Below are positions 28,429-37,470 of a stretch of 37,470 bases of DNA, in pieces (the stretch's first letter is position 1; each line of letters starts with the position of its first letter). The translations under genes and the position numbers were made by a program. Source of the stretch: Eubacterium sp. Its GTDB lineage: Bacteria > Bacillota > Clostridia > Lachnospirales > Lachnospiraceae. Under the pieces are notes generated by a model. The model did no database searches. It was given only the letters and a program-made list of their open reading frames with translations, and was not told where the DNA came from. Location: assembly GCA_017541035.1 (NCBI GenBank), contig JAFXZW010000077.1, positions 1 through 37,470 of the forward strand, written 5' to 3'.

Positions 28429-29871
28429 TTACAGAGCAGAAGCCGGTTTGGGCTGCTTGATCTCCGGCTGATTTTTCTGATTCTGTTTCTGAATATTTTC
28501 CCTGCGTTTTTGCTGGGTGATCTTCCTTGCATTTCTCTGAATATAATCATTCTGAATCTTCTGAATATCATCCACAGTCAGCTTCTCACCTTCCTGGATA
28601 CGCTTCATTCCCTGATCCACAATCTTTTTCGTCAGTTCATGATTCGCGATATTCTGAAGGTCCTGCTGTGTCGGTTCAATTTCGATATTCATCTGGTTCT
28701 TCACATTTTTATATGAATGGAGCCAGTTTATCTTCATACTCTTATCCAGGGAATCCATGCGGTTCATATAATAGAGTGTGCTGGAAACGGACTCGGTAAG
28801 GGCCTCCTTTATCACCTCATGCTTTGCCCCTGCATGAGTAAGGCCGTCCATCGCTTCCTGAAGATCATTCATCTTATCCTGACATTCATTTCTTAATTCA
28901 TCCTTCATGCGTTTAAAATCTTTTTCATAAATATTTTGACGCATTCCCGAGATAGACTTCATTACTTCCTTTATGGCAAGGCGACGCTTCTGATCGTATA
29001 CGGAGGGCTTCTTTCCCTTGCTCAGAAGCGCTTTATCCTGAGCGTCTTTCTTTTTCATATATTTCTTACAGGCAAGATAAGCGTTTCTGGTGAGTAATTC
29101 ATACCGTTCCATCTCTTCCTTTGTGAGACTGGTTCTTCCGGCTATTTGCTTCATATACTGATCCAGAATATAAAGATGCTTTTTAATATTTCTGAACTCG
29201 GGTGATGAAAAACCGCTCCTTGCTCCGAAGGTTACCTCCCGTGTCAGGAAACGAAGGGAGTGCACCTGCTTCTGCTGTTTATCGAGAAGCGTTTCTTCGA
29301 TCTCAGGCTGGGCGTTAACCGTTCCCTTGTAACGGTTCACAATCTTTTTGGGAACCTTCTTCTCGTCCCCTACCGGAGGCTTTTCCTTCTGCTTTGGATT
29401 TTTCACCTTTTGCTGATTGGCATTCTGCTTTGCTTTCTGCTGCTCCGCCTGCCTCTGATTGTTCTCATTTCGGCGGCGGCGTTCCTCATCCATCTTCTCC
29501 TGAAAAGCCTCAATATCATTTTCGATGGTAAAACGGGATCTCTTCTTCCAGATATCCTCAGCTTCTCTGAGCTTCCGTTCCGGTACTTCTACGATATCGA
29601 TTTCAGGCAGCTGTTCCTCTATCTGTTCCCGGTTGCGATTTTGATTTTCTGCCTGATTTCGATCTGCCCGTTCATTTCCGGCCTCGTTGGGATTCCGGTT
29701 CTGATTTGCATTCCGGTTATTATTCCGGTTCTGCCGATTCCCGATCTCGTTATTATTCTGATTCTGCCGATTCCCGATATTATTCTGGTTTTCTGCCTCC
29801 GCCTGATCTTCATTTATGTCATCATCAAAGTCAACTTCCGGATTATCCAGTTCATATAATCTTTTCGGCAT
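28429..29871 (-). CDS. Asn/Gln-rich coiled-coil protein, function unknown
   Basis: The product (480 residues from the ATG at 29871) starts with about 15 ordinary residues and an acidic patch, then about 65 residues dominated by Asn, Gln and Arg (NIGNRQNQNNNEIGNRQNR), a prion-like composition. Residues 100-185 are a charged, Gln/Lys-rich coiled coil, and 190-450 are a helical domain (HSLRFLTREVTFGARSGF and after) that I do not recognise. The tail is Gln/Lys/Pro-rich. A GTG at 29880 and an ATG at 29877 are alternatives; 29871 is preferred because AAGGGG lies eight bases before it. It is the last gene of the VirB4-type operon, directly after the RsbW-like kinase gene. Confidence 0.75.
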   Translation of the reverse strand: MPKRLYELDNPEVDFDDDINEDQAEAENQNNIGNRQNQNNNEIGNRQNRNNNRNANQNRNPNEAGNERADRNQAENQNRNREQIEEQLPEIDIVEVPERKLREAEDIWKKRSRFTIENDIEAFQEKMDEERRRRNENNQRQAEQQKAKQNANQQKVKNPKQKEKPPVGDEKKVPKKIVNRYKGTVNAQPEIEETLLDKQQKQVHSLRFLTREVTFGARSGFSSPEFRNIKKHLYILDQYMKQIAGRTSLTKEEMERYELLTRNAYLACKKYMKKKDAQDKALLSKGKKPSVYDQKRRLAIKEVMKSISGMRQNIYEKDFKRMKDELRNECQDKMNDLQEAMDGLTHAGAKHEVIKEALTESVSSTLYYMNRMDSLDKSMKINWLHSYKNVKNQMNIEIEPTQQDLQNIANHELTKKIVDQGMKRIQEGEKLTVDDIQKIQNDYIQRNARKITQQKRRENIQKQNQKNQPEIKQPKPASAL

Positions 29872-29876
29872 ACTCA

Positions 29877-30386
29877 TCACCCCTTATTTTCAAAAAAGCG
29901 CTTGATCCTTAAAATATTCATTCCGTCCCGGTATTCATAGGTTACTTCGTCCATTACCTGTTTCACAAGGTGTATCCCAAATCCTCCCTGCTTATTCTCA
30001 AACTGCTTTCCTGTGATATCCGGTGTTTCCTTATGAAGAGGATTGAAGGGAATTCCTGTATCTGTAAACTGGATCAGGATATAGGACTGATCCTCCACTA
30101 CCCTGCAGCTGATACGCGCCTCCCCATTGCCCGGCTCATAGGCATATGAGCAGATGTTGACAAAGATTTCTTCTACCGCAAGCCGTATCTCAGCCTTTAC
30201 TTGCTTGCTGCATTGGTTTTTAATCAGATATTCGCTGATAAAATCCAAAAGCGGGTCAAATGCTTCCTTAACGGCTTCTACAGTAATGGTATTATCTTTC
30301 CTTTCGATAAAGAAATCCTTTTTCCCCCAGCTTCCGCCAAGATGAAACACTTCATCATCGAATGAATTAACCGTGTCTGAACCCAT
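29877..30386 (-). CDS. RsbW/SpoIIAB-type serine kinase (anti-sigma-like)
   Basis: The 169-residue protein has a GHKL/HATPase fold of the RsbW/SpoIIAB class. The N box AVEEIFVNICSYAY holds Glu73 and Asn77 in the E-x-x-x-N spacing of these kinases, FTDTGIPFNP (107-116) is the G1 box and QGGFGIHLVKQVMDEV (133-148) the G2 region. Such kinases bind a partner and phosphorylate a STAS antagonist. A STAS protein is encoded two genes upstream. No sigma factor lies in the visible operon, so the target of this kinase may be another operon protein or a distant sigma factor. An AGGGGG site precedes the ATG. Confidence 0.88.
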   Translation of the reverse strand: MGSDTVNSFDDEVFHLGGSWGKKDFFIERKDNTITVEAVKEAFDPLLDFISEYLIKNQCSKQVKAEIRLAVEEIFVNICSYAYEPGNGEARISCRVVEDQSYILIQFTDTGIPFNPLHKETPDITGKQFENKQGGFGIHLVKQVMDEVTYEYRDGMNILRIKRFFENKG

Positions 30387-30434
30387 AAATGTCCCCCTGA
30401 AACCATCTGTTCAAATGAAACCGTCAGGTTTATA

Positions 30435-31037
30435 TCATTCCCTCTCCGCTGCCTCATTTATCTCTTTGGCTTCCTTCTCCAGTTGTGTCTGCTCGTGCCT
30501 CTCCTTTGCTGCCTTTTTTGCCTCTTTGCGTGCTTCTTTTTTCTCACGCTTCTTTTCTGCTTCCCCTTCCTTTTTCTCATTTGCCGCACGGACAAGGAAA
30601 CCGGAAGCATGCTTTTCAAATCGTTTTACCGCCAGAGCAATGGCGATACGAGCCGTGATGCATCTCGGAGTAAAGGCAGAAAGCTGAAGCTTCTGCTCAT
30701 CATTTTCATAAAATGCCAGGATAACGGGATAGAATATGTATGTCTTCAGCTGACAGCCGTAAATATTATCTCTGGAAGTAAAATGGACCCCTCTTCCTAT
30801 ATTCCTGAATACTTTTCCCGCTTCAAAAACAGCCTGGGAGTTATTCTTTCCCGAATCATAGATACGGTGTACTCTGGTAAGGCCCAAAGTTCTCAGCTTT
30901 GTGGATCCGTCGGTCGGTCCGTAGCCAACATTTTCTACAGCCACATAACGCCCGCTCTCATCAAATACCACATGACCGAGAAGAACATGATAGGCCTCCA
31001 TCAGTATAGGATTATTTCTGCTTTTCTTTGATAACAT
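30435..31037 (-). CDS. Unrecognised protein with Lys/Glu-rich tail, between STAS and RsbW genes
   Basis: The 200-residue product has a compact N-terminal domain (1-140) containing YHVLLGHVVFDESGRYVAVE, RNIGRGVHFTSRDNIYGC and FTPRCITARIAIALAVKRF, then about 50 residues of Lys/Glu/Ala (a highly charged helix). I do not recognise it. AGGATATAACC precedes the ATG. Its place between the two partner-switch genes suggests that it is a target or modulator of that switch, which is inference from gene order only. Confidence 0.75.
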   Translation of the reverse strand: MLSKKSRNNPILMEAYHVLLGHVVFDESGRYVAVENVGYGPTDGSTKLRTLGLTRVHRIYDSGKNNSQAVFEAGKVFRNIGRGVHFTSRDNIYGCQLKTYIFYPVILAFYENDEQKLQLSAFTPRCITARIAIALAVKRFEKHASGFLVRAANEKKEGEAEKKREKKEARKEAKKAAKERHEQTQLEKEAKEINEAAERE

Positions 31038-31077
31038 GGTTATATCCTGCCACTATCTCAAATTTACCTTCAGCTGC

Positions 31078-31383
31078 TTAATTCCCTCTGAGATTCAGTA
31101 GTCCTGCCAGTCCTGTCATTTCAAAGACTTCCATGACATTATCATTTACATTTGTGATCCTCAGCTTCCCACCCTTTTTATTCAGACGAATATACAGATT
31201 TCGGATGGTTCGCAGACCGGCACTGGATATGTAATTCATATTCTGCATATTGAGGGTAAGGGCTTCGAATCTGTCCGCCAGCTGGGCAAAGAGCATATCG
31301 GCATCGCCAGCTGTTCTGGTATCCAGATCACCTGATAGCAACAGTTCCCCTTCACTTCCTCGGTTTACCAGTTTTACATCCAT
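31078..31383 (-). CDS. STAS-domain anti-anti-sigma-type protein (RsbV/SpoIIAA-like)
   Basis: The 101-residue STAS protein has the fold pattern of SpoIIAA/RsbV, with the phospho-acceptor region YISSAGLRTI (51-60). Ser54 aligns with the Ser that RsbW-type kinases modify; the usual preceding Asp is Ser here, a common variant. The GGKLRITNVNDNVMEVFEMTGL stretch is typical. It should be the substrate of the kinase encoded by 29877-30386, freeing or sequestering a partner according to phosphorylation state. It begins 10 bases after the VirB4-like stop, with GGAG 14 bases upstream, so coupling to the ATPase gene is likely. No PP2C phosphatase is visible. Confidence 0.88.
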   Translation of the reverse strand: MDVKLVNRGSEGELLLSGDLDTRTAGDADMLFAQLADRFEALTLNMQNMNYISSAGLRTIRNLYIRLNKKGGKLRITNVNDNVMEVFEMTGLAGLLNLRGN

Positions 31384-31392
31384 AATCCGATA

Positions 31393-34300
31393 CTATGCTC
31401 CTCTTTTTTTCTTATTCCTGTCACGTATATACTCACTCAACTCATCCAGTGTGATGGTCATAACCATTTCACCGGATTCTTCCATTTGCTCATCGAGACT
31501 CATATTCGAATACTCTTCTGCAGCCTCAGCGAGCAATTCGGCAAAGAGGAAGGGAGTATGTTCGAAGTCATCTTCGTCATCGAAGTCATCATCTAAATCA
31601 TCCAGATCGTCCAACATCTCATCGTCAAAGCCATCGTCCAGATTATCATCAAAATCTGTATCCATACCTTCTTCCTCTTCCAGATCCGCGTCAAAATCAT
31701 CGTCCAGGTCGGCGTCGAACTCATCGTCCAGATCCGCATCCTCTTCCAGGTCTGCATCGAATTCGTCATCCAGGTCCGCATCCTCTTCCAGGTCCGCATC
31801 GAATTCGTCGTCCAGGTTCGCATCTTCTTCCAGGTCGGCGTCGAATTCGTCATCCAGATCCGCATCCTCTTCCAGGTCTGCATCGAATTCGTCATCCAGG
31901 TCCGCATCCTCTTCCAGGTCCGCATCGAATTCGTCGTCCAGATCCGCATCCTCTTCCAGGTCGGAATCGAACTCATCATCCATGTCCACATCGAATTCGT
32001 CATCCAAGTCTGCATCGAATTCGTCATCCAGGTCCGCATCCTCTTCCAGGTCGGAATCGAACTCATCATCCATGTCCACATCGAATTCGTCATCCAGGTC
32101 TGCATCGAATTCGTCGTCCAGATCCGCATCCTCTTCCAGGTCGGCGTCGAATTCGTCGTCCAGGTCGGCATCCTCTTCCAGATCCACATCGAATTCGTCG
32201 TCCAGGTCGGCGTCGAACTCATCGTCGAGGTTCGCATCGAATTCATTGTCCGAATCTGAAGTCGTATCCATTTCGGATTCCGAGTAGAAATCTTCCCCGT
32301 AACGCAGATCCGATTCTTCTGAAGCGACTGCACTGTCATCACCGAAATCATTTTCCTGCATATACGGCGTTCCATTGCCCGGTCTTTGTTCAGATCCGTA
32401 AGCGGCACCCGATGCATAAGCTATCTGACCATCCATATTTCTGTTTATGGATGAAGGCTCTGCCGCACGAACATCATTTCCCGGATCTCCGTATGCTAAA
32501 GCTCCTCCGGCAAGTCCTGCTCCGACGGATATCCATCTCAACTTCTCCAGCAGCTCCTGCTCCAGCTCCTGACGTATACTGGCCCGCAGCTGATCAAGTC
32601 TGGCATCCAGCTCTTCTGCAGAATAAACCGGCTGACCATAGGAAACCTGATTCTCTTCAGCCCTGTATTCATTTGCGGAAACCTCTGTCAGATTGAGGCT
32701 TCCGTACTGAGTGCCTGACATGCCGGAATCATACGGGATATTCTGCTGCATCTCCGGCTCGTCTGCCTCGTAATCATCCTCAGCAGCATCCACTTCCTGC
32801 AGATTGATACTGCCATAGGACTGTGTATTGCCGGATAACGCGTCTTCGTCGACTTCCGAAAAACTGATTCCTCCGAATCTTCCTGTAGCCAGTTCATACT
32901 CACGACGGTTCACCGTCTCTTCTGCAGCGATCATCCTGTCTACCGCTCCGATCCGACCTTCGGATACCGGCTCCTCATTTTCGATATTCATGTCAGAGGA
33001 GATTTCCGTAAAGCTGATGGAGGAAGGTTTTTTCTCCTCGATTCCCGGATGTTCCGCTTCATATTCGATACGTTCGTCATAGTTCGTATCATGAGCAGCC
33101 CGGCTGCTTTCTACAAAGTCTTCCCAGGCCCCTTCCCCTTCCGCTCCGGAGAAGTAGACGCTCTCGAAATCCATATTTTCAAACATACTGACAAAAAGAT
33201 CCGGAACGTCAATATGGAAGGAGGAACGTGAGGATGGACTCATGATGGCAAAAGCCTGACCGCGTTTTGCATTCAGAATGTCATCCTGCTCCTGCTCGTT
33301 AATACCACCGGCCTTTTCATAAAGCTTGCAAAGGTCATCCATATCATTCGGAGCAAGTCCGAATACGAAGCTGTACTGGCAGGCATTAATGATTGCCGTT
33401 GACTTCCTGGCGATCTCTTCACTTCCCACAAAGTCCTTGATATTCTGGGTAATAACGATCTGCATACCGTTATACTTACGGATACGCTTTGCCAGCTGGA
33501 ACATGAAGTCCAGAGCCACCGGGAATTTGGTATCGATGAATACATGGGCCTCATCGATTACAACAACGATCTTCCGCTTCAGATTGTACCTGATGTTATA
33601 ATCACGGTTTTTGATGATCTCATTATCGATATACTTCAGCACCAGAAGCATCTGGGCATTCGCAATGGTGGTATTTCTGTTTGCCAGCAGGGACTGGAAG
33701 TTAAATACCGAGAAATTCTCTTCGGTCGTAATGGTCGAAGGACCATTCCAGATATTTGCGTTTCGTCCTCCGGTAGAGAACTTGGAAATGTAATTCACAA
33801 GAGAACGAAGCAGCTGACGCAGATACTCGTTGTTCGTACGTTCAAATTCGGACAGAACCACATCATACAGGTCATCAAAAATGGGATAATCCTCCGCATG
33901 CAGGGTTGACAGATCCGTTTCCGCCGTAATGCCGAAGTTCAGATACACACGTTCAACCAGTGAATTCAGGTATTCCAGCGCATCCTTGTCTATATCGGGA
34001 AGAATCTGTCTGAAGAATTCTTCCAGGAACTGTAAATGTGTGGAGAAGCTTCCGGCCGGGCCTCCACCACCCTCCCCTGCCTCGTCATCATCAAGTGCAG
34101 TAATGATGTGGAAGGGATTCAGACGTCCATAGGTTGCATTTCCGACATTGATGATCTTACCATGCAGATTATGTGCAAGCTCCGAGTACTCATTCTCCGG
34201 GTCAAGTATGAAGATCTTGGCATCCTCGGAGGCCAGATTCAGAAGCAGCGATTTCGTGGTATAGGATTTACCGGAACCGGACTTACCCACGATAACCATA

Positions 34301-36126
34301 TTCGAATTGACACGTTCCGCATCACGACGGAAGAAATTGATAAATACCGGGATTCCATCCGAAGATCCCAGCTTGACACCGCCCTGGTCGGAAATATGAG
34401 CGAAGATCCAGGGATACATTCCAGCAATGGTATTGGAAGGAATGCCCCGGGACTCCTTCGTCATGGGATCATAGGCTGATATCTGGGAGCCGATAAAGCT
34501 CTGAATCTGCATGAAGTCCATTCCGGAGAGCTTCATTCCGGCTTCCGACCAGCTGTGGCGAACACTCTTCTTCATTTCAGGAATAAAGGGAACAAGTGTT
34601 TCGGCTTTTTCACCCAGAACCGGATCATCCTTTGTCTGAATCGCATCATATGCCGTAACATAAACATTTACGGAAAGAAGCGTCTCATTTTCCTGCTGAA
34701 GGGTGACCAGAAGCGAAGACAGAGTCTCGATATGTGCCTGCAGTTCCAGTCTCTTGGAATCAATGCCCGTATTGACATATCGTCCGCGCAGTTCCGCCAG
34801 AGACCGGTCAATGGCCCGGATGGCTTTTGCCACATCCATGGGCTGACATTTCACAACCACCTTTGTTCCCGGGAAGGACATGACTCCTGCGAGCCATGCA
34901 TCTCCGACAATGGCCGGATAGCTGATAACCCGGAGATTGTGGCTGATCATATTATTCACGATGGTCTTACGAGGTGTAAATCTCACCTTTTCAGGCATCG
35001 CCCACTCAAACCAGTGCTCGGGATCAATCCTGTTGATCTGCTTTTCATCAAAGTCAAGGGAATTCGAATACTTCAGGAATAACGCCAATCCCTTGCTATC
35101 CAGTCTGCGCGCCGGAAGCTCACCCTGTTCCAGGATATCCAGTGTCTGGCTGATGGCGGAATTCAGCTTATTTCTGTTTCTGTCGAATAGTACGAGATAG
35201 AAGAAGGATTCAATAACCTTATTCTCTGTGCAGAGATCCTCGATCTCATTAATCCGCACATATTCAACCTCTACTCTTGCCTTCAGCTCTTCCTCGGAAA
35301 TCAGTCCGCTTTCGTATGATTTTTTCAGATTATCAAGTTTGTTATATTCCGCTGTCAGATAACTGTCATAAACAATGGGGCGCTGGATTTTAACGATATT
35401 AACACCAAATTCTCCGGCCATGCTCCGGAGAATCCTCCCGAAACAAGCCTCAATGGAATTGTTTCGGCGGTGTTGTGAAAAGAAACGGAACTCAACAGGG
35501 TCAATCTCAACGACCGCACCCACGTATTGTCCTGCATACTCAATAAAATTATCCTTGATGCCGGTAAATGGCATCAGTCCACTGATATCCTCGTGCTTGG
35601 AATTCTCTTCCTTTCCTGAGGACTTCTTTTTCTTTTTTTCGGCAGACCGCTGGGCCCTGGCCTTCCAAACCTCGTCCTGTTCCTCCTTCGTCGATTTCTT
35701 GTCCTTCAGGATCTTATTCTCGGCTTTTATGATCTCCTTAAGTCTTTTCTTTTCTTCCTTCGGATCAAGCTCAACCTCTTCTTCAGCGCCCTCTTCATCA
35801 TAGAATTCATCTACAATTTCCTGCAGATTTCCTTTCGACATACGCTCCAGTTCCTTGTCGTTATATACACGGGCAAGGCGCTTCGGAAAAGCATTATACC
35901 GGAGCATATGCCAGAAGAAGATATAAAGCGGCTCATCATTGACACGGACGAGCAGCATACCGAAAATACTGATCACAATGATCGTGATCGCCCAGCGGGC
36001 CGGCAGCGACGATACCGCGCAGAGCGCAGCTATCCCAAGGCCTACCAAAGCAACGATAATATCGGCAAAGGTAATGCCCTTAAACAGCTCGATCTTAACT
36101 TTTGTTTTTCCAGGTATCAGTCGCAT
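31393..36126 (-). CDS. VirB4-like ATPase with fused PrgI-like membrane segment and acidic repeat tail
   Basis: The 1577-residue protein begins with a PrgI/VirB3-like part: two helices (about 18-38 and 43-62) and RYNAFPKRL. A charged linker (95-175) leads to a VirB4/TraC-like ATPase (180-980): Walker A VGKSGSGKSYT near 610-620 and Walker B VVVIDEAHVF near 853-862. In type IV secretion such ATPases power pilus assembly or DNA/protein transfer. Residues 1000-1150 carry four copies of a (S/N)hxEh-type motif (SISFTEI, GISFSEV, SINLQEV, SLNLTEV). A hydrophobic stretch near 1195 is followed by a Asp/Glu repeat tail (1292-1508) and a conserved-looking end (FAELLAEAAEEYSNMS to RNKKKRGA). AAGGG precedes the ATG, 14 bases after the upstream stop. 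No relaxase or coupling protein is visible, so conjugation is not shown. Confidence 0.85.
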   Translation of the reverse strand: MRLIPGKTKVKIELFKGITFADIIVALVGLGIAALCAVSSLPARWAITIIVISIFGMLLVRVNDEPLYIFFWHMLRYNAFPKRLARVYNDKELERMSKGNLQEIVDEFYDEEGAEEEVELDPKEEKKRLKEIIKAENKILKDKKSTKEEQDEVWKARAQRSAEKKKKKSSGKEENSKHEDISGLMPFTGIKDNFIEYAGQYVGAVVEIDPVEFRFFSQHRRNNSIEACFGRILRSMAGEFGVNIVKIQRPIVYDSYLTAEYNKLDNLKKSYESGLISEEELKARVEVEYVRINEIEDLCTENKVIESFFYLVLFDRNRNKLNSAISQTLDILEQGELPARRLDSKGLALFLKYSNSLDFDEKQINRIDPEHWFEWAMPEKVRFTPRKTIVNNMISHNLRVISYPAIVGDAWLAGVMSFPGTKVVVKCQPMDVAKAIRAIDRSLAELRGRYVNTGIDSKRLELQAHIETLSSLLVTLQQENETLLSVNVYVTAYDAIQTKDDPVLGEKAETLVPFIPEMKKSVRHSWSEAGMKLSGMDFMQIQSFIGSQISAYDPMTKESRGIPSNTIAGMYPWIFAHISDQGGVKLGSSDGIPVFINFFRRDAERVNSNMVIVGKSGSGKSYTTKSLLLNLASEDAKIFILDPENEYSELAHNLHGKIINVGNATYGRLNPFHIITALDDDEAGEGGGGPAGSFSTHLQFLEEFFRQILPDIDKDALEYLNSLVERVYLNFGITAETDLSTLHAEDYPIFDDLYDVVLSEFERTNNEYLRQLLRSLVNYISKFSTGGRNANIWNGPSTITTEENFSVFNFQSLLANRNTTIANAQMLLVLKYIDNEIIKNRDYNIRYNLKRKIVVVIDEAHVFIDTKFPVALDFMFQLAKRIRKYNGMQIVITQNIKDFVGSEEIARKSTAIINACQYSFVFGLAPNDMDDLCKLYEKAGGINEQEQDDILNAKRGQAFAIMSPSSRSSFHIDVPDLFVSMFENMDFESVYFSGAEGEGAWEDFVESSRAAHDTNYDERIEYEAEHPGIEEKKPSSISFTEISSDMNIENEEPVSEGRIGAVDRMIAAEETVNRREYELATGRFGGISFSEVDEDALSGNTQSYGSINLQEVDAAEDDYEADEPEMQQNIPYDSGMSGTQYGSLNLTEVSANEYRAEENQVSYGQPVYSAEELDARLDQLRASIRQELEQELLEKLRWISVGAGLAGGALAYGDPGNDVRAAEPSSINRNMDGQIAYASGAAYGSEQRPGNGTPYMQENDFGDDSAVASEESDLRYGEDFYSESEMDTTSDSDNEFDANLDDEFDADLDDEFDVDLEEDADLDDEFDADLEEDADLDDEFDADLDDEFDVDMDDEFDSDLEEDADLDDEFDADLDDEFDVDMDDEFDSDLEEDADLDDEFDADLEEDADLDDEFDADLEEDADLDDEFDADLEEDANLDDEFDADLEEDADLDDEFDADLEEDADLDDEFDADLDDDFDADLEEEEGMDTDFDDNLDDGFDDEMLDDLDDLDDDFDDEDDFEHTPFLFAELLAEAAEEYSNMSLDEQMEESGEMVMTITLDELSEYIRDRNKKKRGA
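31640..32260. repeat. Tandem repeats encoding the acidic tail
   Basis: The coding strand repeats 24-base (DxDLDDEF) and 18-base (DxDLEE) units, with gaattcgtc recurring in the plus strand. About sixteen DDEF-type and ten DLEE-type units are present. Two 90-base blocks (31951-32040 and 32041-32130) are identical except for three bases, showing recent expansion. Confidence 0.95.
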
Positions 36127-36140
36127 GTGTCAACCCTTCA

Positions 36141-37466
36141 CTACTTTTTTCTCTGGTTTGTCGGATCACCCTTGTTGGCGTTATTCTGCTGCAGTGTGTT
36201 CAGAATTCCGGCATTATTGAACATATTATTGCCTGACTGACTGTTTGTTGAATTAACAGGATTCGTATTCACAGTCTGATTCACCGGCTGACCATGATCC
36301 ATAACCGGATTCTGGTTATTCAGTCCTGTCAGATTGCCTGTATTACCACCGGTATTGATCCCGGAGTTTGTATTTGTACCGGTCGGATTTGTATTGCCCT
36401 GTACACCACCGACGCTGCCGGTATTACTTCCCGAATTCCGATTTATACTTTGGTTATTGGGAATATTTACAGGACCCTGTAAGCCCGGATTGCTTCTCTG
36501 TGTGTTTCTTTGCGCCCCGGAAATATTTCTCTGGGTGCCGGTAGTATTGACCCGGGTACCGGTAGTATTTCTCTGGGTACCCGGAATAGCACCGGCTGCG
36601 TTATTGGCCCGGTTCTGGTTCTGCGGAATACCTCCGCGAGCCGATCCGGTTGCGCTGCCGCGATTAGCCATCCCCTGGTTACGATTGGCAACGCCGCCTG
36701 TGCGATTCACTGCTCCGCCCGCATTATTTGCCGTTTGCGGATTTGCATTTGCACCCTGGCTTTGGTTGTTTACACCGTTATTTCCACCCAGATTGTTCGC
36801 CATTTGCTGCTGCGGTCCTGCGGGATTCTGATTATTCTGATTATTTGGAAGATTTTGATTCTGATTGTTCGGAAGATCATTATTCCGGTCATCGCCCCCG
36901 GCTTCGCCCTGCTGGTCATCATTCTGTCCGCCATCAGCGTCAAAATTGTTGTCCTGCATATCTCCGGCATCTGCAAAATCATTTCTCTGGTTCTGCGGGA
37001 GTCCTGCATCATCGCCATTATTATTGCCAGCATTTCCGATTATGTTGCCGCCAAAATCATTTCCTTCCTGACCGGGTTCGAAAGGGTTATTATTATCCCC
37101 ATCATCACCCTGCCCCTGGTGTCTCTGGTTTCCGGGAAGATCTCCCCCGGCTCCTGCTCCACCACCGAGACCGCCGCCTCCTCCGAGGCCGCCGCCTCCG
37201 GGACCACCCTGGCCGCCTCCTCTGTGACCGCCGCCTCCGGGACCGCCCTGACCGCCGCCTCCGGGACCGCCCTGGCCGCCACCCCCGTGGCCGCCCTGGC
37301 CGCCGTTATTATTCTGAAGCATCTGATTGGTGGGCAGCTCATGAGCCATCTCTCGTCCCGTACGTTCAGCATCCTTTTTATCCTCAGCATAATCAACTTC
37401 AGCAAGCTTCTTAGCCTGGCTTAAAGAATGGCCGCCTTTCTTCATATGATCATAAGCATATTGCAT
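36141..37466 (-). CDS. Gly/Asn/Gln-rich low-complexity protein, start unresolved at window edge
   Basis: At least 441 residues are visible. The first 50 (HSLSQAKKLAEVDYAEDKK) are an ordinary charged helix. About 52-105 is Gly-rich with repeated GQGGPGGGG units. The remainder is dominated by Asn, Gln, Gly, Thr and Ser, e.g. NNQNQNLPNNQNNQN, ending in NANKGDPTNQRKK. The first ATG lies four bases from the window end and the frame is open to the edge, so the real start may be outside. There is no clear signal peptide. It precedes the VirB4-like gene by 14 bases and is probably co-transcribed. Such proteins can scaffold assemblies or bind partners, but no known domain is seen. Confidence 0.7.
   Translation of the reverse strand: MQYAYDHMKKGGHSLSQAKKLAEVDYAEDKKDAERTGREMAHELPTNQMLQNNNGGQGGHGGGGQGGPGGGGQGGPGGGGHRGGGQGGPGGGGLGGGGGLGGGAGAGGDLPGNQRHQGQGDDGDNNNPFEPGQEGNDFGGNIIGNAGNNNGDDAGLPQNQRNDFADAGDMQDNNFDADGGQNDDQQGEAGGDDRNNDLPNNQNQNLPNNQNNQNPAGPQQQMANNLGGNNGVNNQSQGANANPQTANNAGGAVNRTGGVANRNQGMANRGSATGSARGGIPQNQNRANNAAGAIPGTQRNTTGTRVNTTGTQRNISGAQRNTQRSNPGLQGPVNIPNNQSINRNSGSNTGSVGGVQGNTNPTGTNTNSGINTGGNTGNLTGLNNQNPVMDHGQPVNQTVNTNPVNSTNSQSGNNMFNNAGILNTLQQNNANKGDPTNQRKK
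37150..37310. repeat. Gly-rich tandem coding repeats
   Basis: Units of about 24 bases built from ccgccgcctccgggaccgcc encode GQGGPGGGG in tandem within the low-complexity gene. The G+C content here is far above that of the flanking Asn-rich coding sequence. Confidence 0.8.
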
Positions 37467-37470
37467 ACGC

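Follow-up and report, generated by a model that had tools for sequence, protein, structure and literature searches.

The RsbU-RsbV-RsbW and SpoIIAA/SpoIIAB switches, which control sigma factors, are built from the same families of STAS protein, kinase and phosphatase that are discussed here. A sigma/anti-sigma pair is also involved in the Btr system of Bordetella. There, according to a published account, a PP2C phosphatase, a STAS protein and an RsbW-like kinase act on a secretion machine, and BtrU, BtrV and BtrW are all required for type III secretion (PMC8256260). The same text describes STAS output on a non-sigma target for SypA/SypE of Vibrio fischeri and HmpU/V/W of Nostoc, which concern biofilm and hormogonium motility/polysaccharide and not a type IV secretion system (T4SS), and treats partner switches with non-sigma output as an open problem, SypA and HmpV being without a proven target (PMC8256260). 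Here we describe a locus from a Eubacterium sp. that encodes such a switch within a T4SS gene cluster. The stretch analysed (the window) is an entire contig, C127, of 37470 bases from a draft genome of 2.98 Mb (139 contigs, 95% complete). The reading that we put first, and regard as about evenly balanced between right and wrong, is a chromosomal T4SS without relaxase that is set by a switch of the RsbU-RsbV-RsbW type and probably serves protein export or contact at the surface. Its machine differs from that of Btr, which is a type III system in another phylum, and the action of the switch here would be a prediction from the genes.

Two described groups of T4SS resemble the machine. Those of Patescibacteria, mostly without relaxase and thought to be co-opted, have a monoderm-type VirB4, a coupling protein and VirB2-like pilins including PF18895, as set out in the source (PMC12102498). 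The likeness is one of gene content, since the present locus likewise combines a PF18895 pilin with VirD4 and lacks a relaxase of the families searched; the phylum is different, and 'STAS' has 0 occurrences in that paper (PMC12102498). The MPF_FATA-type machines of Firmicutes plasmids and integrative and conjugative elements (ICEs), including the CD1110/Mbov_0397 families, share VirB4, VirB6, VirD4 and pilin. In contrast to the present locus, five such loci in the same genomes have a PF03432 relaxase within 10 kb and no detected STAS, RsbW or PP2C gene, and their VirB4 is only about 25-27% identical to the long-tailed VirB4 described below.

The window carries the six open reading frames (ORFs) of the original prediction, all on the minus strand, with gaps of 14, 9, 40, 48 and -4 bases between successive ORFs. 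The outermost (36141..37469), encoding 442 Gly/Asn/Gln-rich residues and open at the contig edge, had been taken for a low-complexity protein of its own. It is instead the C-terminal part of a VirB6/TrbL-like channel protein broken by the contig end, because the low end of contig C90 and the high end of the window share an exact 19-base overlap that keeps the reading frame continuous, and a homologue in AC2029 is similar across the join. The N-terminal 638 residues lie on C90:1-1914, the last 6 being common to the window fragment; AC2029 VirB6 aligns through its residues 619-665 with residues 2-48 of the fragment (51%), and its preceding residues are similar to the C90 part. We assign the protein to VirB6 provisionally, from weak TrbL_4 matches below the cut-off (0.003, 0.0099), its hydrophobic segments and its position. 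In gene direction, C90 carries dapB, thrC, queD/E/C and an acetyltransferase gene, followed by genes for a 1897-residue protein and for unknowns of 578 and 1446 residues. A response regulator and a histidine kinase come next, separated by a 255-residue protein that has some six hydrophobic segments; after them stand the pilin, VirD4, a 324-residue protein with hydrophobic segments at its two termini, and VirB6. The order continues in the window with VirB4, the STAS protein, a 200-residue protein, the RsbW-like kinase and an Asn/Gln-rich protein. The locus is split in the same way, across two contigs sharing a broken gene, in genomes G160 and G328.

With this join the component set of a conjugative T4SS (VirB4, VirD4, VirB6, pilin) is complete at the locus. 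VirD4 had been thought missing because the window stops at the contig edge; it is encoded at C90:2950-4974 (PF02534, 5.5e-53), found with AC2029 VirD4 as query (82% identity; PF02534 match of the query 3.5e-54). The pilin matches PF18895 (1.6e-10). The virB4 gene (31393..36126, minus strand) encodes 1577 residues, and 18 other genomes have relatives that are 59-82% identical to it where they match. The proposal that it is a PrgI-VirB4 fusion holds for its VirB4 part, which matches NF045975 (1.7e-163, 545.6 bits, below the model cut-off of 590) and P-loop_TraG (1.7e-15) and has Walker A (614) and Walker B (854) motifs in its ATPase core; the N-terminus shows two hydrophobic segments and a weak PrgI match (E 0.21). 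The C-terminus is a long acidic low-complexity tail, the last 60 or so residues of which form a conserved module. Across the acidic repeats two further frames stay open, one of 274 codons on the virB4 strand (31593-32417) and one of 345 codons on the opposite strand (31250-32287); these extra frames at 31250-32417 are most likely a by-product of the virB4 repeats and not genes.

The two switch proteins that had been recognised in the window are both borne out by Pfam and NCBIfam. The STAS protein (31078..31383, minus strand; 101 residues, RsbV/SpoIIAA-like) matches PF01740 (3.2e-14) and TIGR00377 (1e-17), and its SSAG motif (S53-S54-A55-G56) is invariant in 11/11 aligned rows. The RsbW/SpoIIAB-like serine kinase (29877..30386, minus strand; HATPase_c_2) matches PF13581 (1.7e-20), with the RsbW equivalog models below cut-off, and residues E72, E73, N77, D109, G111, G134, G135 and G137 of its N-box and G-box are invariant in 11/11 rows. 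From these conserved motifs the switch looks functional. The absence of a PP2C phosphatase agrees with the window genome's own locus, where none was found, and does not hold overall, since a phosphatase gene lies in the regions of 8 of 16 relatives. The AC2029 phosphatase carries a SpoIIE domain (PF07228, 1.4e-42) behind hydrophobic segments, and has 16 matches in the window's genome, all outside the locus (one a fragment, two full-length at 42-43%). Partner switches appear to be plentiful in that genome; at G000:C42:28391-36152 (L171) a gene for an RsbW-like kinase lies close to three phosphatase-like genes. A plasmid search with RsbW returned 8 distant records, none with 80% query coverage. 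A short-peptide docking idea, pairing GGISFSEV-like peptides in VirB4 tails with FHLGG-like peptides at RsbW starts in one type-A subclade, was set aside. The window kinase has such an N-terminal FHLGG peptide, and FHLGG-like RsbW N-termini are frequent in the subclade with GGISFSEV-like VirB4 tails (three in G002); they are not counted as docking evidence because the patterns were written from these very sequences and the subclade is nested.

To what extent machine and switch recur together was read from three groups of loci. Type A comprises the 19 genomes with long-tailed VirB4 (59-82% identity), namely 13 of 397 family genomes, from 12 genera with VirB4 of at least 59% identity, and six related-locus genomes. 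Counts refer to regions with at least 15 kb read, searched by profiles trained on many of the same loci; this leaves out the type-A regions of G147 and G332 (neither STAS nor RsbW) and of RUG12082 (both present). Among the remaining 16 type-A genomes STAS was found in 15 (all except G328), RsbW in 13 and PP2C in 8, together with VirD4, VirB6 and pilin (14 each), a response regulator (10) and a histidine kinase (9), the 200-residue protein (16), a giant protein (15) and the Asn/Gln-rich protein (8). In G245 the RsbW, PP2C and 200-residue genes are on a different contig than virB4. Of the 16 type-A genomes having a STAS gene (the 15 and RUG12082), 13 have it as the next gene after virB4. The giant gene lies between the STAS and 200-residue genes in 10/15 genomes and upstream in the window's genome. 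Two type-A genes contain an in-frame stop, virB4 of G330 (G330:C2:180586-184704) and the 200-residue gene of G328 (G328:C39:11476-11904), by decay or assembly error. G397 (RUG13730; L003, L004) has two contigs with a 200-residue gene, RsbW and an Asn/Gln-rich gene, which may reflect either a duplicated system or a mixture of strains.

A second kind, type B, has a VirB4 of 51-55% identity without the tail, and was found in 8/397 family genomes and in G658, G458 and G736 of the class sample (G736 matched over part only); the ORF is about 900 residues in 10/11 and 1202 in G458. G063, G048 and G342, none showing STAS, fell below 15 kb. The 8 type-B loci counted have VirD4 (8), pilin (8), STAS (7), RsbW (3) and PP2C (3), with STAS near virD4 in several, and the giant and 200-residue families were not detected by type-A-derived profiles. 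The same profiles, RsbW and STAS included, served for type-B and control loci, where diverged copies may be missed. Controls were six of nine deeper VirB4 loci (G500, G569 and G667 being left out) and five conjugative loci of type-A genomes, with G397:C76 (5 kb) left out; by profile, two of the five show VirB4 and VirD4 and three VirD4 only, an earlier search having found a VirB4 of 25-27% identity in each. STAS, RsbW and PP2C were found in 0/11 controls, the single weak STAS match at E<=10 being one of E 0.05 in ICE_G153_C16 (Fisher p for STAS versus controls 1.9e-7, not corrected for kinship). In the VirB4 tree type A (19 rows) is supported at 100/100, and the branch that separates the 30 rows of both types from the remaining 9 has 100/99; support for type B by itself is weak (86/69), the root is by midpoint, and the long rows G766, G697 and G523 are unsure.

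The co-occurrence check proposed with the original prediction thus gave a recurring gene content in type A and a related arrangement in type B, and the suggested coupling of a partner switch to a secretion-like machine recurs with two kinds of VirB4. That unrelated genes became chance neighbours in one assembly, for which one can say that short gaps among six genes prove little alone, is refuted by content that recurs in 16 genomes, by the arrangement in the sister kind and by 0/11 controls, and we give it practically no weight.

We then considered whether the locus is conjugative. Relaxases of PF03432, PF03389 and PF02486 were searched genome-wide (TrwC, Mob_Pre and MOBM were not), and none was found in the locus of 11 type-A genomes, fragmented genomes being covered for the flanks read. 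It had been said that relaxase and conjugation genes directly beyond the window edge would make this an ordinary mobile element: T4SS genes do follow there, a relaxase of these three families does not. PF03432 is present in 7/11 type-A genomes and never on the locus contig save in AC2029, whose locus contig measures 3.86 Mb with the nearest copy more than 350 kb off; in G120, G160, G075 and G215 the genome-wide search gave no member of any of the three families. In a set of 13 genomes, 11 of type A and 2 of type B, PF02486 is absent throughout and PF03389 occurs in 3, on contigs other than the locus contigs. Among 10 type-B and 3 deeper genomes the sole PF03432 copies on a VirB4 contig are in G046, more than 350 kb away, and the type-B genomes G048, G063 and G161 have none. 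By comparison, the low-identity VirB4 genes at G153:C16, G153:C8, G002:C25, G002:C29 and G400:C43 all (5/5) have a PF03432 relaxase 3-9 kb away. A mobile element as carrier was rejected as no integrase appeared among the Pfam-scanned flanking genes of two loci, although no dedicated integrase or oriT search was made.

An integrated element that conjugates by means of an unrecognised relaxase, with the switch as cargo or transfer control, is nevertheless suggested by a VirD4 and VirB4 of conjugative type, the best NCBIfam match being an ICE ATPase family, and by neighbours that differ among the genomes with flanks read. The genome-wide tests covered three relaxase families only, with no search for integrases or oriT, and deeper switch-less VirB4 genomes likewise lack PF03432. 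We consider this explanation improbable given the relaxase results at the 11 type-A loci and in the four genomes free of all three families, the housekeeping genes dapB, thrC and queD/E/C on one side in the window's genome, and the spread of type-A VirB4 over 12 genera of the family sample.

In the preferred reading, a relaxase-less T4SS set by the switch, the machine would consist of VirB4 with a VirB3-like N-terminus, VirB6, VirD4, the T4SS pilin and exposed accessory proteins. It would export proteins, candidates being large helical cytosolic proteins with basic C-termini from the same loci, and would cooperate with a giant secreted-type surface protein. The kinase would phosphorylate the STAS serine and so inactivate or hold the STAS protein; a membrane PP2C phosphatase, responding to an outside signal, would strip the phosphate, and free STAS protein would license the machine at its cytoplasmic face (the VirB4 tail or the 200-residue protein). 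Export of proteins, the direction of the switch and direct binding of STAS to the machine are all conjectural. Because STAS follows virB4 in most genomes of type A, and in several loci of type B lies close to virD4, the cytoplasmic ATPase, or the 200-residue protein as a possible adaptor, appears the likeliest target, and the VirB4 tail, acidic and with a conserved end module, may be a natural docking site. The two-component system would set expression and the partner switch activity, so that an unlinked sigma factor would not be required.

The same genes could serve a switch that controls an unlinked alternative sigma factor transcribing the T4SS genes or a wider regulon, with adjacency reflecting co-regulation. 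This is the canonical role of RsbV/RsbW (PMC8256260), the kinase is a normal member of its family with the conserved boxes kept, and phosphatase matches are numerous in the window's genome. As had been noted for the operon, a Pfam scan of locus genes found neither a sigma-factor nor a relaxase domain (the search for sigma factors did not extend to the whole genome); a two-component system at the locus already provides transcription control, and STAS adjoins virB4 in 13/16 type-A loci. We regard control through an unlinked sigma factor, the chief alternative to our reading, as possible, if somewhat doubtful.

Several observations weigh against the preferred reading. STAS lies elsewhere in G074, G075 and G215 and is not behind virB4 in type B, and its tie to VirB4 or to any T4SS part is presumed from sequence. 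The searches detected no RsbW in G120 (38 kb read), in G074 or in 5/8 type-B loci, and PP2C is missing from half of the type-A regions, so that switch and machine can separate; the 16 phosphatase matches mean that other switches exist in the window's genome. Three of the six deeper controls (G681, G445, G407) show no VirD4, VirB6 or pilin by profile, and profile sensitivity there is therefore unsure. The deeper control genomes G697, G681 and G523 also lack PF03432, and its lack is thus not confined to switch-bearing loci. Finally, the basic tails of the candidate substrates derive from a hand-picked, partly paralogous set.

This set comprises 26 large unknown soluble proteins of type-A loci, paralogues and the window's Asn/Gln-rich protein included. 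Basic C-termini serve as signals of some VirB/VirD4 substrates. Over the last 30 residues the mean charge is +3.7 for the candidates (n=26) versus -0.9 for other ORFs (n=189; p 6e-9), which, given how the 26 were chosen, we take as a lead only. None of the 13/26 that were scanned has a Pfam domain above cut-off. The Asn/Gln-rich protein (28429..29880, minus strand), a candidate substrate or adaptor without Pfam or NCBIfam match above cut-off, has a disordered N-terminal part, a helical C-terminal domain and a basic C-terminus. In G245 (L069:957-13749) a tandem array upstream of the T4SS pilin encodes five such large proteins, which have N- or C-terminal blocks in common. A bolder version, in which a chromosomal non-conjugative T4SS of Gram-positive type, spread through Clostridia, delivers proteins such as tandem large helical effectors into neighbour cells and is fired post-translationally by STAS docked on the VirB4 tail, seems to us rather unlikely.

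The unrecognised protein between STAS and kinase (30435..31037, minus strand; 'DUF4') was confirmed as such, its 200 residues, predicted to be alpha/beta with a charged helical tail, having no Pfam or NCBIfam match. The AlphaFold2 (AF2) model has a pLDDT of 71.5. The protein was found in 11/397 family genomes, all within the 13 having VirB4 of at least 59% identity and solely alongside long-tailed VirB4; in the two without it (G147, G332) virB4 is on contigs of 4.9 and 5.9 kb. The 7 loci found by this protein are all from Lachnospiraceae. The giant protein of the window's genome, the 1897-residue product of C90, has a signal-like N-terminus. Among five giant proteins scanned from other genomes, PLAT is above cut-off in 3 and below in 1, and the fifth (G120) has InlB-type B-repeats; that of AC2029 has a CBM_56 match below cut-off.

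The open literature searched, with most subscription journals and preprints outside its scope, contained no description of a T4SS with STAS/RsbW and no paper joining a STAS domain and VirB4, and neither 'STAS' nor 'partner switch' came up in a word search of a 2025 T4SS review. The view that no system with such a gene set has been described agrees with this; T4SS and partner switches are each known, and chromosomal loci that combine the two and have no recognised relaxase did not turn up there and are new to that literature. The genes for machine and switch are neighbours in AC2029 and LC2019 (records titled as strains) as well, and the target of the switch is therefore directly testable. If protein export is true, Clostridia would have a chromosomal T4SS that works without relaxase, which would bear on how bacteria interact by contact.

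Promoter and terminator counts in the window are not above those of shuffled sequence, and Rfam at gathering thresholds gives no match in it. A GNAT acetyltransferase gene lies in or beside the T4SS locus on C90 (L075:956-1501) and in G330 and G400, the three being 58-60% identical. A group II intron maturase gene is found upstream of the AC2029 locus. At L006:14657-15415, next after the AC2029 phosphatase gene, is a gene of the TraX family (PF05857, 3.6e-30), whose namesake TraX acetylates F pilin.

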